A stretch of 64,000 bases of DNA from a virus, in IMG/VR virus record IMGVR_UViG_3300032220_000699, positions 1 to 64,000 of that record. One strand, written 5' to 3'. The notes beneath the pieces are model-generated. The model searched no databases. It saw nothing but the letters and a program-made list of their open reading frames with translations, and was not told the DNA's origin. Positions within the stretch are counted from its first letter, which is position 1, and each line of letters begins with the position of its first letter. The position numbers and the translations under genes were made by a program. This document shows positions 32,669 to 56,970 of this stretch, piece after piece.

Positions 32669-32923
32669 TTAATCATTGCCAAGAATAATGTTACTTATCT
32701 TCTTTAACCAATCTGGAAATTGTTCCAGTTCAGTGATATTAGTTATATGTTCATTAGCTATAGAGTTTATTTCATCCTGAAGTCTTGACCAGTGTATATG
32801 ATCAAGCTCAGGTGCAGAAAACTGTTTGGATGAAATAATAGAGTCTAACTCTTTGGTGGATAAACCTTGTTCCTCAAAGATAGGTTTTAATTTATTAATT
32901 ACATCAATGACATTACGACCCAT
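32669..32923 (-). CDS. Hypothetical small protein, 84 aa
   Basis: Not recognised. Charged helical protein (VIDVINKLKPIFEEQGLSTKEL). ATAAGGAG precedes the ATG, and an early-type TATATA motif lies 20-40 bases upstream, so this is probably an early gene. It ends 54 bases before the beta-prime gene, possibly reading into it. Confidence 0.72.
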   Translation of the reverse strand: MGRNVIDVINKLKPIFEEQGLSTKELDSIISSKQFSAPELDHIHWSRLQDEINSIANEHITNITELEQFPDWLKKISNIILGND

Positions 32924-32940
32924 AGAAATCTCCTTATATG

Positions 32941-32964
32941 CTACACATACTATATATGTGACTG
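32941..32964 (-). promoter_or_regulatory. Early-type promoter
   Basis: Minus strand: CAGTCACATATATAGTAT followed by GTGTAG. CATATATAGTAT(G/C)TGTAG is shared exactly, but for one base, with the element before 36744. Confidence 0.6.
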
Positions 32965-32988
32965 TTTTAATTCTGGATGCAATAATAA

Positions 32989-33015
32989 GACTACCTACGA
33001 TTTACGTAGGTAGTC
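32989..33015 (-). terminator. Hairpin terminator
   Basis: An 11-bp stem GACTACCTACG / CGTAGGTAGTC with loop ATTTA, at the end of the small membrane-protein gene. Confidence 0.8.
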
Positions 33016-33020
33016 AATAT

Positions 33021-33179
33021 TTATTGTGTTTTTTTGTTACGATAATCGTACCGCATTTTGAGAATTATACATGAAGCACCCATTAAAATAGCTCCAGAGA
33101 AAAATCCTAACCAAAATGCTTCTAACCTCATTGCTTCTAGCCCAATAAGAGCGAGTCCATAAGGTTTTGATTCATACAT
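33021..33179 (-). CDS. Small membrane protein, 52 aa, with upstream mini-cistron
   Basis: ATG at 33179 opens a frame encoding MYESKPYGLALIGLEAM, a single hydrophobic segment (FWLGFFSGAILMGASCIIL) and a basic tail KMRYDYRNKKTQ. It has no good ribosome site of its own. A strong one (GGGAGG) serves an ATG at 33198 that opens an eight-codon frame (MELPGWDV) whose stop TGA overlaps the downstream start region, so reinitiation is likely. Alternatively a one-base error splits one gene. Role unknown; small phage membrane proteins often act on host envelope or in superinfection exclusion. Confidence 0.5.
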   Translation of the reverse strand: MYESKPYGLALIGLEAMRLEAFWLGFFSGAILMGASCIILKMRYDYRNKKTQ

Positions 33180-33239
33180 CCAACCAGGTAATTCCATGTT
33201 ACCTCCCTTTCCAATACCTCAATATATGAAAAAAGAAAA

Positions 33240-43800: not shown

Positions 43801-44398
43801 AACCACCAACAGCACCAACTGCTCCAAGAATTTTTCCAAGCCAAGAACTTTTTTCTTTCTTTTTGGAATTTTCTTGAACAGCCTTCTTTTCTTCCTCGAT
43901 CTCTTTCTTTCGCCTTTCGGCGCGTTCGTTTGTTTTACTGAACATTTTACTAAATGCAGATTCTTTCTTTTCAGATTTAGCTTCTGCATTAGCATTGTTC
44001 ATTTCTGTCTGGCTCTTTTCCTGCTCTGTTCTAGATTCTTCAGGAGGACTTACACCAGTTTCATTTTCCTTCTTAAATAGATTTGTAAGCTTAGATTGAA
44101 TATCTGTTGCCTTGGCTTTAGCTGTTTCTAAAAAGCCTTTTTGTTTGGATTCTTCTTTAAAGTTTTTAGCCTTTTCTAAAAACTCTTTTCCTTTTCCTTT
44201 TACATTTTCAATACTTGCACCAACGTCAATATTTCTTTTCTTAAGCATTTTATCAAGAGCATTAAAAATATTTTCAGCTCTTTCAATACTCTGTTTAATG
44301 AATATAACAACGTTTGAATCTTTGTGTTTTTTAAACACAGATTTGGTTGCACCTCTAAAGGCTGCATTCAAATCTTCAAATAAGCTTTTCTCAGCCAT
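40850..44398 (-). CDS. Tail-associated protein with two murein hydrolase domains, 1182 aa
   Basis: N-terminal ~180 residues are highly charged coiled coil. Residues ~185-320 are a Gly/Ala/Leu-rich hydrophobic region with several possible membrane-inserting helices (GWIAAAATAAYAGYKLYKYL). After a Pro/Glu/Lys-rich linker comes a VanY-type D-Ala-D-Ala carboxypeptidase domain with STHEFGLALDIN (SxHxxGxAxD) and EKWHIEP (ExWH). A second Pro/Gly/Ala linker leads to a lytic transglycosylase domain: AYAQMESSGKGG with the catalytic Glu, ATGLFQIVGGTWK, and a conserved LAHHYGASGA. This is the architecture of an injected or tail-tip protein that inserts in the membrane and cuts peptidoglycan during entry. 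It follows the 1042-aa gene and probably shares its operon, though a hairpin lies between them. Confidence 0.85.
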   Translation of the reverse strand: MAEKSLFEDLNAAFRGATKSVFKKHKDSNVVIFIKQSIERAENIFNALDKMLKKRNIDVGASIENVKGKGKEFLEKAKNFKEESKQKGFLETAKAKATDIQSKLTNLFKKENETGVSPPEESRTEQEKSQTEMNNANAEAKSEKKESAFSKMFSKTNERAERRKKEIEEEKKAVQENSKKKEKSSWLGKILGAVGAVGGLIGKALGGLGGFLLKGFGKSIGYLGGFVVKGLGKTMMSLVPALGSTIAKLTSKLVGGGLKAIGTVAMEGAKTAGRAMLPMAGGALKLAGRAALTLATGPVGWIAAAATAAYAGYKLYKYLTRNNVADDLGGKLTRLRLLMYGFNDVKKEHYSKVFDLEMMMKDYVKFKDYKVTVDKLNNDDIDKILDIFKVKREEKDKYKILNTWFVKRFMPAYKAFMQALYSVNNSIYLDEIDKMKPLDVYNFVTRISVPTVIYDIQEVPTFDDPKVYSTKDEVDSMLTNITNQCKDQANQKDPNTAKKIEAENKAKQSAVAQKQQPEQKKAEETKPAPPPAKQPPLEQSPGEADSPPGKTETGVGEKTETKAAAKLTKASGEIYPGTTSLEGISTKLAKEKIYNLDPNVRELFTGMAKEYNALTGKTIPVNEAFRSYEDQAALYAKMPGKAAKPGNSTHEFGLALDINSKEADELDKLGLMRKYGFTRPIGGEKWHIEPIGVSLDPNRAKKDQNYRFSAIQSSPGKGGDGYGALDNSTLKKRDVQYQLSVYNKAGGETIDPAKAIKNSPAPNLEPKPGMGGKPGETPGDKPKITGAASPTATQSNTDAKAATTGGSAGSIATGSGNPDAEAKPTINSSNKPLEKSENVAPANPATDVGKYAELGPDAAITQAAKMTGMNEATMKAYAQMESSGKGGSIKNKNSSATGLFQIVGGTWKALVKKYGPKYGLPPDAKPDNNYYNALMAMEYAKENLAGLKDYQSAGIDEATAIYLAHHYGASGARKIIDFLKKDPNTPMKNAVSGDAYAANKAGIGDASVQGYVQKVSGKIAAAGGGGNAAGNTTATETKPTVASTDTSKQPSITVASNDAPKQQNNSNSSQVAQLNKAVYKPETSSGSLYKTVDTASPASAPAQAPAPQQSSVMNPKNSEKLMTDQLDALNLIAKILTSIDGKFDADTFKQLAAGKSQQTPPPAPDKSIPKGGVNLSRKSVEA

Positions 44399-44419
44399 GG
44401 TAATCCTTTTCAGTAATAA

Positions 44420-44450
44420 GTGTACTGGGTCAAAAAATGACCCAGTACAC
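44420..44450 (-). terminator. Hairpin terminator, 13-bp stem
   Basis: GTGTACTGGGTCA / TGACCCAGTACAC with loop AAAAA (plus) or TTTTT (minus), between two co-directional tail genes. No clear U tract follows on the minus strand, so partial read-through or RNA processing is possible. Confidence 0.7.
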
Positions 44451-44457
44451 TTTATGT

Positions 44458-47400
44458 TTAAATAGTAGCTGCTTCAGCTGCCTTAACTTCATCCTCAAAT
44501 TCTTTAAGGGTCGCTTTAGCCTTAGCGATAAATGTTCTAAATGGTTGAATAGCTTGTTGGCTAAACTCAGTCATTGTCTGTACATTTGTATCGATATTAG
44601 CTATACCATTTCTACTTTCATGAAGAGTTCCTTTGAATTTCTTCAATAAGGCAATTTCTTTTTTCTTTGCCTGAACCATTGTTTTCGTACCTTCACGCAT
44701 AACACTATCTAGAGAATTCTCACTAACATTTTCTCTAACACTTGCTGCAAGTTCGCTTAGTTTAGCTTCTTCTTCTCGAAGAGTAGCTTCTTCAGCTGCA
44801 ATTAGTGAATCAATTTTTCTAATATAGTTGTCAGCCATTTCTAGCATTTTCTTTTTGGCGTTCTCTTTAACACCAGGACCATCTTTTTTAATTAGGTCAT
44901 CAATTTGTTTTTGTAATCCATTAAGAGACTTAGTCACATTCTTATAAGCTTCTTTAGCTGATTCTTGAGATTGTTCTGAAACAGATTTAAGCATAGATTT
45001 AACAGCACTCTTCATGCCATCGAAACCTTCAGCTTCATTAATATCTTTACTAAACTTTGATCCTATATCAGTAAACTTACTTAAATGTTTACCAAACGCA
45101 CTTTTTTCTGTTATATCAATAATATCTAATTTTGATCTTGCTTCTAAAGCTTTTTTAACAGCTCTACTACCTCGCTTAGAAAGTGCTTTAAGTTCACCAG
45201 CGTCAACTAAAGCTTCATCTTTATTATCTTTACCTAACTTACCTTCAACTAAATTAGTTATACCTAATTGACCTGAATCTTGAAGATCAGAATCATAGTC
45301 GTGAAGTATTTGGAATGTATCTGGATTAAATTCAAAACTATTAAATAAACTTTCATTAACCATTGAAATGAAAAGTGTTATTTGTGAATTTTTATATGTG
45401 TCGTCTTCAGCTTGAATTTGACGACACTGCGGAATAAATACTTCAAGATAAGGGAAACAAACGGACTTATCTTTTTCTGGTATAAAAGCAAAACATGTTG
45501 CATCACATATACTGCTTAAAGTTATTGGTTTATTTCTTCCGTGCATGTAAGCAACTAAAGCTTTAGAAATTAAGTTAGCTGCATCACCCTTTACATTATT
45601 AAGAGTTTTACTACCAACTAATCTGGAAGCTTCTCGGAATAATTCTATCACACCGAGAGTAGGATAAATTCTTCTAGAATCTTTAACTCTTTCATTAAGA
45701 TTAGAATTCTTTTTGGAAAGATTAAGGGATTGCAATGTTTCTACATATTGTTTTAGTTTTGGATTCTTTTCAACAATTGCTTTTAATCCTGGGTCTTTAT
45801 CTATATTTGTAACAACATTGTCATAATTGAAGTCTTTGGCATCTATCTTTGTACTTGCCATAGACATAAATTCTTGAAAGGATTTTTGATTTCCTTTATT
45901 AGAAAGGATTTTATATGCTTCTTTATCTGTCTTTTTATCGACAGAAGATAGAGCTAATGAATTAATATTATCAGCTGCAGAAGTAATCTTCTTAGATTCT
46001 TTACCAGTGTCTTTAAAAACAGCCTGATCTACAGCAGCTTTAAATTCAGCCTTTGTTGAAAGTTTTCTATCAACATAGTTATAGACTTGTTCTTCTTTGT
46101 CAGAAAAGTTTTTAAGTTTACCTAAGTTAACAGTTTTATACATTAATCTTAAATTAGTATTTTCACTTAAGATTTTAGCAAGATACATCGGTATAACTTC
46201 TGTGATACTACGATGAACCTTATTATCAAATATAGCAGGTTTATTATGGTCAAGTATATTTTTCTTCTTAACCTCAAATCTCTGCATGTTAGGATCAGTT
46301 GCGCTTAAGAGTTCATCGGCGCCGCCTAACAATTTACTAGCAAGGAAACGTAACGGTGTTCCTTCATCCTGATAATTTTCTTTAGCTGATTGTGTTTTAC
46401 CACGAAGCATAGAAAAGAAAGTTCTCGGAGAATTAGCCATCATGTTAAGATAGTTTCCACCTGCCTTAACATATTTATTATCTTTGGTCTTAGATCCAAG
46501 TTTATCGCCTAACCAGTTGCCGGCCTTTTCACCAAGAATACCGCCACCCATGCCAGACATAATACCACCGAGTACACGACCACCGCCGCCACTCATTTCA
46601 CCAGCCTGATTAATGCCTGATAAAGCATCAGTGACATTATCAACATTATCTGTTATACTACTAATTTTTTCATTAATAATATTAGTCATTCTCTTCTTTA
46701 CATTCTGCATATACTCAGAATTAGAAAAGAGTTGTTTGTATGTATTTTGAATGAACTGTGTTCTCATTAATTCAGAGACACGTTCAGATGTTTGAAGTTT
46801 AACAAAATCAGGAAGGGCTGTGTTCTTCTTAATTTCTTCAAACTGAATAGAGAAACCTTTGTAATAGTCTCTCATGTCTTTAAGCATATCTGCTTGAACA
46901 AAATAACTCTTGTATTGAAGTTCAAGTGACTTACGATAATATTCTTTACTAATCTGTAAAGTGAAAGCTGTTTGATTAGAAAGATTATTGTCAATACTAG
47001 TAAGAACATCTAGATTGACTTTACTAATTGCTAGATTTTGTTTTCTATCAGCTTGATCTTCTGCACTTCTCTTAGATTCAATAGCCTTGGTAATTTCAAG
47101 TTGCTTATCAAAGATAGAACTAAGATTAGATTGAATATTACCTTCACGAATTTGCTCTTCTGTCTGAGACTTAAATGCCTCAAAATCACTTTCATATTTC
47201 TGTAAAAAATTATCAAGCATCTTGGACTGGAATGGAAGAATCTTCTTAACTTCCTTACCAAGACTATAAAGGCTTTTATTAATTTTACCCTTACTTGCTT
47301 GAAATGTTTCTTTAGCAAAATCAGCATATTCTACTGCTGTATAATAATTATCTTTATAAGAATCCGGGAGTGCTTTCTCAGCAGCTTTTCTGGCGGTTGA

Positions 47401-48257: not shown

Positions 48258-49892
48258 ATGGATGCCACATCTTTAAAGAAATTGCCTGTCAACTTAGACT
48301 TACTTATGGTTACAGAGCAAGACAAAGTACGAGTCGGTGAAGTCACCGATATGCAAATTTTTGACAACACAAATAACTTTCACCCTCAAGGATTATTTAG
48401 TACAACTATTTTCGGTAACATCGGAACTGAATTTAGAAATAGAACATTTGGTTATATTGACTTAAAGACAGAAGTTCTTCATCCATTAATCTATTTTGCA
48501 GTTATCTCGTTAAAGGCTTTTTACAAGCAAATACTAGACGGCACAACAACAGCTGAATGGGATGCTAAGACAAAGTCTTTTATTAAATCAAATTCAGACG
48601 AAGCAAGAACTGGTTATACTTTCTTTGTTGAACATATTGAACAACTTGTCTTTGAAAAGAATGAATCAGAAAAACGTTCTTTCTTAATTGATCTATTTAA
48701 TAAAGCGATTAAAGAACAAAAGTATAAGATGCGATATCTTCTTGTTCTTCCTGCTGGTATCCGTGATTATTCTGTTGATGATAACGGTAAACCACAAGAA
48801 GATGAAATTAATAAGTTTTATCGTAAGGTGTTATTCCAGTCAAGTATTATTGATCCTATTATTTCTAAGAAGTCTCCTGAGGTTTATGACAATATTCGTA
48901 ATAGCTTGCAGAAGATTACACTAGATCTATTTGATTATATTAAGAGTTTACTTGAAGGTAAACACAAACTTATTTTAGGTAAGTGGTTAACTCGTAAGAT
49001 CTTTAATTCAACTCGTAATGTTCTTTCCAATCCGATCGAACGTGCTAACAATATTAATGATCCTAATCGATTAGGTTATAATGAATCGTATATTGGTCTT
49101 CATCAATTCTTGAGAGCTATTGCTCCTAAGACTTTATACGAGATCAAAAACACATACATTAAAGATATCTTTATTGAAAATAATAGTTTTGCTTATTTAA
49201 CGAATGTTAAAACACTGAAGCGTGAAGAAGTAATGAACACGCATATTCAGAAAGACTATGACCTATGGACTTCGTTAGAAGGTCTTGAAAAAGTTATTGG
49301 TAACTTTGCTAACTTAGATCTTCGTCATTTACCTATTACATTGAATAAAGGTAAACACTACCTTGGTCTTGTTTATAAGGATGGTAAGTATTTTAAATTC
49401 TTGCAAGATATAGATTCTGTTCCTGAAGGATTTGATAAGTCTAAAGTTACACCTGTCACTATGGCAGAGTTTCTTTACATGTCTATTTATAGTTTATCAG
49501 GTAAGTATCCTGGTCTCATTACTCGTTATCCTATCACTGGTTATGGTTCTATCTATCCTTGTTTCCTTAAACTCAAAACAACCAACACTTCTGAAAGTTT
49601 AGAAGAGCTTGATTTTGAATGGAAACCTACAGGAAGACTTGCATCGTGTTTCCCTATTAGAGATAAAGATTTCTTTAATACAATTGCGGCACATACTTCT
49701 CACTATAAAGCTATGACGGCTGACGTAGACGGTGACGCTCTTTCTATTATTGGCTTGACAACTGATGAAGCTATTCAAGAAGTTCAAGATTACTTAACAA
49801 GGAAGGAATACTACATTTCTTCTGACAATCGTTTCCACTTTAGTATTAGTCAAGACACTATTGACGCAGTACTGAACTATATGACAGCCTAA
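48258..49892 (+). CDS. Second RNA polymerase beta-prime-like N-terminal subunit
   Basis: 544 aa after AAAAGGA. It follows beta-prime N-terminal order: a FSTTIFGNIGTEF region (compare ARIFGPVKDYE), LVLPAGIRDY (compare TVLPVLPPDLRP), RKIFNSTRNVLSNPI (compare KRVDYSGRSVITVGP), ITRYPITGYGSIYPCFLKL (compare LLNRAPTLHRLGIQAF), and TADVDGDALS at 487-496 (compare NADFDGDQMA) with all three catalytic aspartates. Unlike the 476-aa subunit it has no zinc cysteines near its N-terminus. It ends about 50 residues after the catalytic loop, so the rest of beta-prime is encoded elsewhere. The two subunits are too different to be recent copies and belong to two polymerases; this one may be the virion form. Confidence 0.87.
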   Translation: MDATSLKKLPVNLDLLMVTEQDKVRVGEVTDMQIFDNTNNFHPQGLFSTTIFGNIGTEFRNRTFGYIDLKTEVLHPLIYFAVISLKAFYKQILDGTTTAEWDAKTKSFIKSNSDEARTGYTFFVEHIEQLVFEKNESEKRSFLIDLFNKAIKEQKYKMRYLLVLPAGIRDYSVDDNGKPQEDEINKFYRKVLFQSSIIDPIISKKSPEVYDNIRNSLQKITLDLFDYIKSLLEGKHKLILGKWLTRKIFNSTRNVLSNPIERANNINDPNRLGYNESYIGLHQFLRAIAPKTLYEIKNTYIKDIFIENNSFAYLTNVKTLKREEVMNTHIQKDYDLWTSLEGLEKVIGNFANLDLRHLPITLNKGKHYLGLVYKDGKYFKFLQDIDSVPEGFDKSKVTPVTMAEFLYMSIYSLSGKYPGLITRYPITGYGSIYPCFLKLKTTNTSESLEELDFEWKPTGRLASCFPIRDKDFFNTIAAHTSHYKAMTADVDGDALSIIGLTTDEAIQEVQDYLTRKEYYISSDNRFHFSISQDTIDAVLNYMTA

Positions 49893-50161: not shown

Positions 50162-50359
50162 TTACTCCTTATCTTTTAAACTAGACTCATAGATAATTCG
50201 TTTACCTAATTGAATCAATTCTTCACCTAGTTCTTTTGGAGAAATTGTTTTTTTAACATTGATAGCACGCCACTGCTGATTATTGAACAAAACACGTAGA
50301 CTACTCATGTCGCCTGTCTTTACCACTTCAATATCTTCTACAACACTAATAGCAGTCAT
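50162..50359 (-). CDS. Hypothetical small protein, 65 aa
   Basis: AGGAGA precedes the ATG. Beta-strand-rich start (ISVVEDIEVVKTGDMSSLRVLF) then a helix (PKELGEELIQLGKRII). Not recognised. It lies just downstream of the terminator of the minus-strand RNA. Confidence 0.75.
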   Translation of the reverse strand: MTAISVVEDIEVVKTGDMSSLRVLFNNQQWRAINVKKTISPKELGEELIQLGKRIIYESSLKDKE

Positions 50360-50398
50360 TGTAATCTCCTAGTTAATTTCATAAAGTTTAGAATAAAA

Positions 50399-50434
50399 TA
50401 AAAAAAGAAAAACACTACCTGAAACAGGCAGTGT
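50399..50434 (-). terminator. Intrinsic terminator of the small RNA
   Basis: ACACTGCCTG / CAGGTAGTGT (one G-U), loop TTT, followed on the minus strand by TTTTCTTTTTT. The one-sided U tract fixes the direction. Confidence 0.88.
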
Positions 50435-50555
50435 GAGTGCTTTTCATGTATTTAATAATTTCAGGGTAACGCCCTAATTCAAATCAGCTTAGGACTGACG
50501 ACCAGTGTGGTGTGTGCTAACGAGTCAGAGACTCTACCGCACACACTTCTCTTCC
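50399..50555 (-). ncRNA. Putative structured small RNA
   Basis: This 320-base gap between 50359 and 50682 holds no plausible gene. On the minus strand it shows a strong two-part hairpin: GTGTGTGC (50546-50539) pairs with GCACACAC (50517-50510), and inside it GAGTC-TCT-GACTC (50534-50522), separated by a symmetric GGTA/GTTA internal loop. A second stem GTCCTAA / TTAGGGC with loop GCTGATTTGAA follows, then a short AGGG/CCCT hairpin, then an intrinsic terminator. Ends of the RNA are inferred. It is not a tRNA: no cloverleaf can be drawn. Between 50556 and 50654 only AT-rich sequence is seen. Confidence 0.6.
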
Positions 50556-50651
50556 TACCTTAGTAGTTATAATCTTTGAATACCAAAACATTTTATAACA
50601 GTTTAAAATTAATCAATAAATAATTAAATAATTAAAAAATTAATGAAAGTA

Positions 50652-50669
50652 TGATTTGACTAATAAACT
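50652..50669 (+). promoter_or_regulatory. TTTGACT late-type promoter motif
   Basis: TGATTTGACTAATAAACT lies directly before AAGGAA of the gene at 50682. Confidence 0.5.
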
Positions 50670-50681
50670 AAGGAAATTCAA

Positions 50682-52946
50682 ATGGCAATAGGCGACTTAA
50701 TAGGTAGTGCTAAATCAGCCATGGGTTCTGTACAAGGTGCAGTTAGCTCAGCACAAAATATGGTTGGATCAGCTACTTCAGGTTTAAATATTACATCAAA
50801 AACAGATCAGTCAAGAGCTATCGAATCAATCGACTCAACTTTTGACAGAGAATGGTTAAAGAGTACTTTTATTCTTAGAGACGAAGATATAGTTTTAGGT
50901 GATGAATACAGTAAGTGGGTGAGAAAGAATCGTTACATTTCTTCAGCTGACTTTAAGTATACATCTACAGCACCTGGTATGAATATGGCTGTTAATCCTA
51001 AGCCACAATTCACACGTTATGCAGATCCTCGTGTTAGAGGTAAACTTGAATCAAGACCAGAGTTTATTTCTGTGGCAACAACAGGACATCAACATGGTTT
51101 AGGTATGGGTCGTTATTATTCGGAAGCTTTCGATGATAATCAACAACGTATCTTTATGAGATTCGGTGTACCTAAATATATCCCTCTTCTTCTTTGGATA
51201 TATAAGTCATTCGACGTTGATAAAGTTGTTCTTCAGAATAGAGGTGTTATTACTTCTACACTTATTGAAACAGTTGGTCTTATTGCTAAGATGTTTGCTA
51301 TTGCAACAGCACCACTGTTAGCTTTTGGTATGTTTGCTGCGAATGTCATTACTCAGAGTAGTCGTTTCTATTCTGTTAAAGATACAATGTATACTTATTG
51401 GTGTACTGTTGAAAACATCCTTAACCAAATGGCTGCTCGTAGAACAATGATTCCCCATGTTCTTCAAGACTTTACATTCCGTTTAGATAGTCGTATTGGT
51501 ACAGAACAGAAACCAACAGAGAAATTCTTAACTGGGTTTAATGAGATTCTTCCTGATGTTATTAATCCAGAAACTGGACGTATCAGTGTTTTTGCTTTGG
51601 CTTTAAGAGCACAAGCTGCTTTTAACAAAATGAAGAAAGCTGATGTCGAGAAGAATGAATCTAAAACTATCTCGAGTGATTTTACAGGTTATCCTGAGAC
51701 AGGTAATACTTCCCACGATACCTATTTCACGAATAAAGAAGGTAAGGCAACTTTGTTCACAGAGTTGTTATTTAAACGTGCCTATGATTTATTAATCAAA
51801 GATGATAAGGATAACACCGTAAGTCTTGATCAAGATAACAGTACAAATCAAAGTGGTCTTATTGATTTTGATCCAACATGGACTGACGAGAATGGTAAGA
51901 TCCTTTCTCCTAAAGTAAATAAGGATAATCCTGAAGACTCTGTTGAAAAACAAGTCATGGAAAATGCTGAAAAGAAAAAGGATAAATGGGGTAAGTATAA
52001 AGAATACATGATGGCAGAGTTATCTGAAGGTGCTGCCTTTGCTGTATTTAATGTTGAGTATACCGGTTCTATTGGTGAGTCATTTAGCAACTCTTTCGGA
52101 TCTAATCCATTAGAGTCAACATTTAATTCTATCAGTTCAAAAGCACGTAACTTAACTGACTTAATGTCTTCAGCTGCTAATATTCCTGTCGTAGGCGATG
52201 CAATGAAATTTGCAGCAGATGCAGGTGCTAAGATTCTGAGTGAGGCTAGTTTTGGTCTTGCTAACCCACTTCTTGCACTGGCTTATGGTGTTAACATCAC
52301 TATGCCTAAGGTTTGGGAATCTAGTTCAGCCACACTACCTAGAGCGAGTTATAAGATGAAACTTATTTCTCCTTATGGTAATGCATACTCTCAGTTATTT
52401 AATATCTATCTTCCTATGGCTATGCTTCTTGCCGGTAGCCTTCCTAGGTCAACTGGTAATACTTCTTACACCTATCCATTTTTCTGTCAGCTCTTTGACA
52501 GAGGTAGAACAAATATTCAGCTTGGTATGATTGAGTCTGTATCATTTACTCGTGGTACATCTAATCTTGGTTTTAGTCGTGCTGGTCATCCTAATGCAAT
52601 TGATATTGATTTCTCTGTTGCTAATCTTGACGAAATGATAGCAGTTGATGTTTCACAATCTGGTGTACTTGGTAAAGCAATGGCTGCACTTAGTCCAGAC
52701 TTTAGTGACAGTCCTTTTGTTTCTTATCTTAACACAATTACTGCTGTTGATGTTTATACACAAATTTACCGTATACCTATGCTTAGACTTAAACTCGCTG
52801 AACGTATAGCGACATTAAAATCAGTAGTAAATCCAGATCCAGCAGCATTTGCCGCTATGACAGTTCAAAACTTCCCAGGACTTGGTTTTGCTAGAAATGT
52901 TCTTGGTGATAATCACCAAGCGTTACAAGATATAACAATGCGTTAA
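50682..52946 (+). CDS. Virion structural protein, 754 aa (probable)
   Basis: An Ala/Ser/Gly-rich amphipathic N-terminus (DLIGSAKSAMGSVQGAVSSA) is followed by a hydrophobic region (IETVGLIAKMFAIATAPLLAFGMFAANVI) around residues 205-235 that may insert in a membrane. The middle is polar; a second hydrophobic part lies near 545-620 (NPLLALAYGVNITMPKVW, YLPMAMLLAGSLP). The C-terminal part (IESVSFTRGTSNLGFSRAGHPNAIDIDFSV) is beta-rich and looks like baseplate or tail-tube associated proteins. No enzymatic motif. AAGGAA precedes the ATG. Position in the particle is not recognised. Confidence 0.72.
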   Translation: MAIGDLIGSAKSAMGSVQGAVSSAQNMVGSATSGLNITSKTDQSRAIESIDSTFDREWLKSTFILRDEDIVLGDEYSKWVRKNRYISSADFKYTSTAPGMNMAVNPKPQFTRYADPRVRGKLESRPEFISVATTGHQHGLGMGRYYSEAFDDNQQRIFMRFGVPKYIPLLLWIYKSFDVDKVVLQNRGVITSTLIETVGLIAKMFAIATAPLLAFGMFAANVITQSSRFYSVKDTMYTYWCTVENILNQMAARRTMIPHVLQDFTFRLDSRIGTEQKPTEKFLTGFNEILPDVINPETGRISVFALALRAQAAFNKMKKADVEKNESKTISSDFTGYPETGNTSHDTYFTNKEGKATLFTELLFKRAYDLLIKDDKDNTVSLDQDNSTNQSGLIDFDPTWTDENGKILSPKVNKDNPEDSVEKQVMENAEKKKDKWGKYKEYMMAELSEGAAFAVFNVEYTGSIGESFSNSFGSNPLESTFNSISSKARNLTDLMSSAANIPVVGDAMKFAADAGAKILSEASFGLANPLLALAYGVNITMPKVWESSSATLPRASYKMKLISPYGNAYSQLFNIYLPMAMLLAGSLPRSTGNTSYTYPFFCQLFDRGRTNIQLGMIESVSFTRGTSNLGFSRAGHPNAIDIDFSVANLDEMIAVDVSQSGVLGKAMAALSPDFSDSPFVSYLNTITAVDVYTQIYRIPMLRLKLAERIATLKSVVNPDPAAFAAMTVQNFPGLGFARNVLGDNHQALQDITMR

Positions 52947-55729: not shown

Positions 55730-56215
55730 TTACTTGCCGAACATGCCAGCAAATTCTTCCGACATGGAATCGCGGACAGCCTTCAGGCCGTTGCCCTTGA
55801 CAGAGGAAGAGGAGACGGTCGTCTGCATAACGAGATGCTTGACAACTTCCTTTTCATCCGGGTTCTTTGCCAGATGGTTCTGGAAAGTCTTGGTGCGAGC
55901 CACAGAAATATTGATGCTGTCATTCTTACCGAAGTAACCAACTTCAGCTTCAACAGCTTCAACAGCCTTGTCACCCTTGAAGATTTCGGCAGCCATTTCG
56001 CCGACAGCGATGTGCGTGGCGGTAACGAACTTACCGTTGTACTTCGACAGTTCTTCAACCGTATCAGCGGTGATACCTTCCGGCAGGTTTTCGACATAGG
56101 TCGAACGCGGCACAGTTTCCTTGATAGCGGAACCTTGGGCTACGAGACCACCCTTGATTTTTGCGGCGAGATCAGAATGCTTTTGCAGGTTTTCTGCTTT
56201 GAAATTGACGGACAT
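55730..56215 (-). CDS. Abundant small protein, 161 aa
   Basis: Family not recognised. AAGGAG site, C/G-ending codons, a good early-type promoter and a 156-base leader mark it as strongly expressed. The protein is compact and helical, Lys/Glu/Ala/Val-rich, ends SEEFAGMFGK, and has no signal peptide. Candidates include a small nucleic-acid-binding or phage-nucleus-associated protein, but nothing diagnostic is visible. Confidence 0.8.
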   Translation of the reverse strand: MSVNFKAENLQKHSDLAAKIKGGLVAQGSAIKETVPRSTYVENLPEGITADTVEELSKYNGKFVTATHIAVGEMAAEIFKGDKAVEAVEAEVGYFGKNDSINISVARTKTFQNHLAKNPDEKEVVKHLVMQTTVSSSSVKGNGLKAVRDSMSEEFAGMFGK

Positions 56216-56370
56216 CTTTTAACTCCTTGTTGATATGATCTGATTGATCACGGGTCTAGGTAGGGAATCTATTACTGAGATTAGGCACTGGATCAAAAAC
56301 TGCTTGATAACCAGATAACCAATTGATAGTGTTAATCAATAAAAAAATAATAACATTGTACTTAGAGACA

Positions 56371-56388
56371 CTTAATATATATGTTACT
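56371..56388 (-). promoter_or_regulatory. Early-type promoter AGTAACATATATATTAAG
   Basis: Minus-strand match to GTNACATATATANTA. The leader that follows is long (156 bases) and holds hairpins ATTGAT/ATCAAT (56340-56322) and AATCT/AGATT (56282-56266), but not the AUGGCUCU loop. Confidence 0.6.
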
Positions 56389-56484
56389 AATTTAGCTTCC
56401 AAAACACAAACCACTTATGAAAATTTAAATAAATATGAGAATCCTTTTACAACTTACTTCCAACTATTCATAAAGGTGGGTTAA

Positions 56485-56970
56485 ATGCAAACTTTAACAC
56501 CATGTTGTAACAACAACACATTGATGAACAAATTTTATAAGAATCTGACTTTGTTCTTATTCTTCGTTCTTCCTTCAAAGATCGCAAACATCTTCATCAA
56601 TCTTTCTATCTTGGCAATTATATACGATATTCGGAATATCAATTTTTGTACTGACAAGATAAACACCGATCGCATCCACTCTTTATTGAAAGTAACTGTT
56701 AGCGAAGAAATTTTACTATTACCCAATTACACCATTCATTGGTTTTGGGATGAAAATTTCCTTAACACAAAAACAACAATCAACAATCAAGAATACACTC
56801 TGAAACAGATCATTTATGATTCTGGACTGTTTTTCAGTCATATGAGATTGGTTATCGATATGTTCCTTAACCATCTTCCGAACACAATGAAAATGAAGTT
56901 AGGTGTGAGTGACGCAAGAAAGCGCATTGCTGTTAAGCACAATTTAATGAACATCCTTATTTATAGTTAA
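56485..56970 (+). CDS. Hypothetical protein with hydrophobic segment, 161 aa
   Basis: Not recognised. After MQTLTPCCNNNTLMNKFYKN comes a strongly hydrophobic stretch (LTLFLFFVLPSKIANIFINLSILAIIYDI) that could be a membrane anchor. The rest is soluble and aromatic-rich. AAGGTGG precedes the ATG. It is an isolated plus-strand gene between two minus-strand groups. Confidence 0.68.
   Translation: MQTLTPCCNNNTLMNKFYKNLTLFLFFVLPSKIANIFINLSILAIIYDIRNINFCTDKINTDRIHSLLKVTVSEEILLLPNYTIHWFWDENFLNTKTTINNQEYTLKQIIYDSGLFFSHMRLVIDMFLNHLPNTMKMKLGVSDARKRIAVKHNLMNILIYS

Follow-up and report, generated by a model that had tools for sequence, protein, structure and literature searches.

Few phage small RNAs are known: 21 have been counted, and two more were found in phiKZ (PMC8545117). 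In phiKZ, an ncRNA of about 180 nt derives from the 5' UTR of p40, with a second stem that may end transcription early, and another of about 100 nt derives from the 3' UTR of PHIKZ298 (PMC8545117). We analyzed the first 64 kb (hereafter the window) of the 189,134-base virus record IMGVR_UViG_3300032220_000699 and found a gap that, on balance, seems to hold an independent transcription unit for a predicted late-expressed small non-coding RNA. The resemblance to the phiKZ 5' UTR-p40 ncRNA lies in the phiKZ-group phage, the similar size, the structured nature and the terminator-like stem before a start codon; however, the phiKZ RNA was detected experimentally alongside a longer mRNA, whereas the RNA here is predicted from sequence. 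With the PHIKZ298 ncRNA it has in common that it is small and structured and carries a Rho-independent terminator at its end, but the former comes from an mRNA 3' end, and here no close same-strand gene lies upstream. Bacterial intergenic trans-acting small RNAs likewise possess their own promoter-like motif, hairpins and an intrinsic terminator with a T run; unlike the situation for those RNAs, no target above chance and no conservation were found here. A phage-wide search with the gap RNA, which was not aligned directly to the p40 ncRNA, returned no phiKZ match. The original prediction regarded stable RNAs of this size as little described in phiKZ-like genomes; given the p40 ncRNA, such RNAs are not undescribed, and ours is a prediction from one genome whose place within the known category of phage-encoded small RNAs is plausible but unproven. 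An RNA-only late unit, if true, would offer a clean test of regulatory RNA use by phiKZ-like phages, because RNA synthesis in such phages is carried out by polymerases of their own.

The genes around the gap (50360-50681) belong to phiKZ-type families, which agrees with the phiKZ-like setting proposed earlier:

48258-49892, RNA polymerase beta-type subunit gene (phrog_2986)
50162-50359, minus strand, 65-aa ORF downstream of the terminator, no family
50682-52946, plus strand, divergent virion-protein gene (phrog_3181), relative of phiKZ gp182

A tail fibre protein gene (phrog_3201) is also among the neighbours. Relatives of the phrog_3181 protein, roughly 26-34% identical to it, occur in jumbo phages of Vibrio, Burkholderia, Erwinia and Pseudomonas. 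The small minus-strand genes downstream of the terminator span 50359-49928, and their 65-aa and 76-aa proteins had no relatives in the searches made.

The gap, whose sequence was read on both strands, measures 322 nt and separates divergent genes, and the next-largest gaps of the window measure 166-237 nt, varying with the start codons and the minimum length allowed. That it is the only gap above 300 bases thus holds within the window under a simple ORF call, but the rest of the 189-kb record has larger ones, and tRNAs or a tmRNA lie in several of these. Among the 14 divergent gaps of the genome, 11 are 55-133 nt long, and the present one exceeds them by about 200 nt; two further long gaps are located at 56215-56485 (269 nt, containing short ORFs) and at 32923-33196 (272 nt). 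The minus strand of the gap contains no ORF of at least 30 aa, and its longest ORFs have at most 24 codons. Going 5' from the terminator, the next gene on the minus strand is reached only after 2.6 kb, on the far side of the divergent gene at 50682, so that the terminated RNA contains no protein gene, as had been claimed. The elements traced in the gap, in the direction of minus-strand reading, are as follows:

50628-50640, minus strand, second, weaker promoter-like candidate ATTTTTTAATTAT, two mismatches, in an AT-rich low-complexity stretch
50609-50621, minus strand, late-type promoter-like motif ATTTATTGATTAA, one mismatch to ATTTTTTGAnTAA
50404-50608, minus strand, predicted small RNA of about 205 nt, both ends putative
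50510-50546, minus strand, hairpin 1: 8 bp, GGUA/GUUA 4x4 internal loop, 5 bp, UCU triloop
50483-50499, minus strand, hairpin 2, 6 bp, weak
50461-50477, minus strand, hairpin 3, 6 bp, weak
50399-50434, minus strand, intrinsic terminator: 10-bp stem 50434-50412 with a 3-nt loop, T run 50411-50399
50379-50387, minus strand, candidate promoter from which the small genes downstream could be read separately, ACTTTATGA, one mismatch

Hairpin 1 comprises 13 bp in total, divided by the symmetric 4x4 internal loop, and reaches -20.7 kcal/mol when folded alone (z -3.5, 200 shuffles). Of the 18,272 49-nt windows taken along the two strands of the window, 128 reach -20 or lower, which places hairpin 1 in the top one percent. 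The two-part hairpin with its GGTA/GTTA internal loop is confirmed and folds better than shuffles. The single second stem-loop of the original prediction turned out to be two, both weak (hairpins 2 and 3 jointly -11.8 kcal/mol, z -1.8, 200 shuffles). The 149-nt body gives z -2.7, with an equally good fold in 3 of 200 shuffles; the z of -5.3 for a longer stretch is inflated, because a purine-rich 5' segment pairs with the U tract.

The terminator stem is followed on the minus strand by TTTTTCTTTTTTT; folded alone, it yields -13.7 kcal/mol (z -5.5, 200 shuffles). No T run follows the stem in the plus-strand reading, and the T run is indeed specific to the minus strand. In the whole record, 49 of 78 terminator-like sites lie within 120 nt 3' of a stop codon on the same strand. 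Among the remaining 29 are two-way terminators read in reverse, intragenic sites and sites after genes missed by the simple caller, with the tmRNA and one tRNA also among their upstream neighbours; the survey, which takes these 29 as a group, is support and not a test. The tmRNA and tRNA genes of the record are situated in large gaps, with such terminators 3' of them. Elsewhere, a 300-nt gap at L009:6951-7250 (record about 90951-91250) has a terminator about 227 nt past the preceding stop codon, and possibly represents a second RNA or a long 3' UTR.

Two motif types were found upstream of the genes of this phage. The early-type ACATATATAATAATTG resembles the AR9 early consensus AAATATATATTAT-6N-G (PMC5312081). 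The second type, ATTTTTTGAnTnA, which a motif search also recovered, sits about 30 nt 5' of start codons and differs from the published late motifs, AACA-6N-TA/G in AR9 and TATG in phiKZ; we name it late-type by analogy, the timing being predicted only. Its long form, ATTTTTTGAnTAA, was derived from the other genes of the phage. When no more than one mismatch to ATTTTTTGAnTAA is allowed, the 189-kb record contains 23 sites, 13 of them outside ORFs. Eleven of these 13 are 29-47 nt before a start codon; the remaining two are L009:13645, located 48 nt 5' of the tRNA-Leu gene, and 50621, the single one-mismatch occurrence 5' of the hairpins in the gap. An equally good match arises in 54 of 2000 dinucleotide shuffles (2.7%) of the AT-rich stretch upstream, which makes the motif at 50621 moderate evidence. 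A candidate promoter 3' of the terminator, ACTTTATGA, would make the small genes independent, but it is weak and at chance level, with an equal match in 377 of 2000 shuffles (19%) of the 40-nt stretch. Elsewhere in the window (44398-44458), two minus-strand genes are separated by a 15-bp hairpin with a late-type motif, TTTTTTGA, at its loop, an apparent fusion of terminator and promoter; a similar fusion is seen at L012:11964.

The motif and the terminator together point to an RNA of about 205 nt, shorter than the interval 50399-50680 originally taken as the RNA gene. In the reading we favour, minus-strand transcription by the phage's own RNA polymerase, the non-virion one, would begin at the late-type motif near 50621 and end at the terminator. 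This would free the RNA (50608-50404), whose hairpins may guard it against decay. Transcription of the adjoining small genes would come from a promoter of their own, located beyond the terminator. This reading draws on a strong terminator with no nearby same-strand gene upstream, the folding, the placement and orientation of the motif, the gap length, the similar placement of the record's tmRNA and tRNA genes in large gaps ahead of such terminators, and the want of a good ORF. Against it stand the failure to find a homologue, the AT-rich context of the motif, the weakness of hairpins 2 and 3, the chance-level ACTTTATGA and the leader-like position of the terminator, just 40 nt before a minus-strand start codon. 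The proposal of a small RNA gene is thus upheld in its structure, terminator and absence of a protein gene, to which the promoter motif is added, but the transcript itself is a prediction, no homologue was found by which to judge its conservation, and one serious rival persists.

That rival is a 5' leader with an attenuator, in which the start near 50621 serves the small genes at 50359-49928, the terminator halts most transcription and the short RNA arises as a by-product or works as a regulated switch. We consider it possible, at a distinctly modest level of belief, and serious because the phiKZ p40 5' UTR ncRNA (PMC8545117), whose architecture the locus matches, has a stem that possibly ends transcription early. 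The short distance from the terminator to the ATG at 50359 fits a leader, as does a 7-nt CCUGAAA (50465-50459) that can pair with the terminator's UUUCAGG, and a 5' AGGUAG repeats the terminator's 3' arm. However, the CCUGAAA/UUUCAGG pairing has a probability near 0.01 when the transcript is truncated and close to zero when it is complete, whereas the terminator forms with a probability of 0.95-0.997, and the tested antiterminator fold is negligible. Furthermore, a terminator followed by a new promoter is common between genes of this phage, a weak one-mismatch promoter motif does follow the terminator here, and no known riboswitch or leader family of Rfam 15 matched at the gathering threshold.

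The other alternatives fare worse. A long stem interrupted by an internal loop is the outline of T7 RNase III signals, and hairpin 1 resembles them to that extent. It might accordingly serve RNase III-type processing or mRNA stability within a longer minus-strand RNA that the terminator ends, but no close minus-strand gene lies upstream and the loop is a symmetric 4x4, which leaves this improbable. It is hardly probable that the gap is intergenic sequence devoid of function, or what is left of a gene, its hairpins due to chance and its terminator a relic: no homologue was found and the matching gap of the nearest relative holds unrelated sequence, but the genes of the phage are tightly packed, and the structures and terminator beat shuffles. 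Translation of a small ORF from the GTG at 50544 (21 codons) or at 50546 (9 codons) behind GTAGGAAGAG is highly improbable, in spite of a Shine-Dalgarno-like AGGA a few bases 5' of the GTG codons; both start codons are within the stem of hairpin 1, the ORFs are very short and no relative was found.

Searches for relatives of the predicted small RNA were uniformly negative, although near-identical records may escape these searches. Rfam 15 gave nothing at gathering and, at E up to 10, sub-threshold chance matches only (SpF11, ARRPOF); a tRNA or tmRNA identity was rejected, with no ARAGORN or Rfam match. Blastn of the RNA against phage and plasmid records returned 25-29 nt chance matches only. 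Scans of IMG/VR and GTDB genomes with patterns of hairpin 1 revealed no homologue: the 26 matches to the loosest pattern looked by eye like coding sequence or chance, none backed by a covariance model. A match at the end of contig L105 shows the same internal loop with another upper stem and was dismissed as chance, because the contig shows no phiKZ-type RNA polymerase subunit. The covariance search proposed for related phages, run with a single-sequence model over 85 loci and 20 related contigs, gave best matches that were partial, terminator-like or weak; with no homologue, there is no covariation evidence. The nearest relative found in IMG/VR, L015 (64% identity in the phrog_3181 protein, 68% in the polymerase subunit), has a different, unrelated sequence with other hairpins in the matching gap. 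Its upstream gene also differs and, judged by eye, encodes a ribonucleotide reductase-like protein that appears to contain an intein. This gene (L015:422-2509, minus strand) occupies the place of the window's two small minus-strand genes.

Complementarity to phage start sites, another check suggested at the outset, amounted to 12 9-nt matches against 12.3 expected over 176 genes; a 9-nt complementarity at the start site of gene 50682, the divergent one, is therefore not significant. As complementarity does not exceed chance, protein binding is favoured over start-site pairing, and a protein-binding or structural RNA working via hairpin 1 is the most likely mode of action, a view that we hold weakly. 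The fullest version is doubtful: it would place this small RNA in a new family, late-expressed and confined to this lineage of phiKZ-like phages, that binds protein and acts through the GGUA/GUUA hairpin on the machinery of gene expression in phage or host.

The record also carries other RNA genes. Six minus-strand tRNA genes (Leu, Arg, Met, Asn, Tyr and Ser) were observed in L009 and L010:

Record about 97.5-98.2 kb, 112.6-113.1 kb and 122.7-122.9 kb, minus strand, tRNA genes

A tmRNA gene is located at L009:12161-12597 on the minus strand (record about 96161-96597), with the ARAGORN tag AANDAQFAPQLKLAA. None of the 20 related contigs has a tmRNA that passes the family cut-off, and in blastn no phage record covers more than 9% of the gene; huge-phage tmRNAs are already known (PMC7162821). 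In Rfam the gene matches the permuted tmRNA RF04321 (102 bits) and the betaproteobacterial tmRNA RF01850 (96 bits), and the permuted form is a hint of a betaproteobacterial host.
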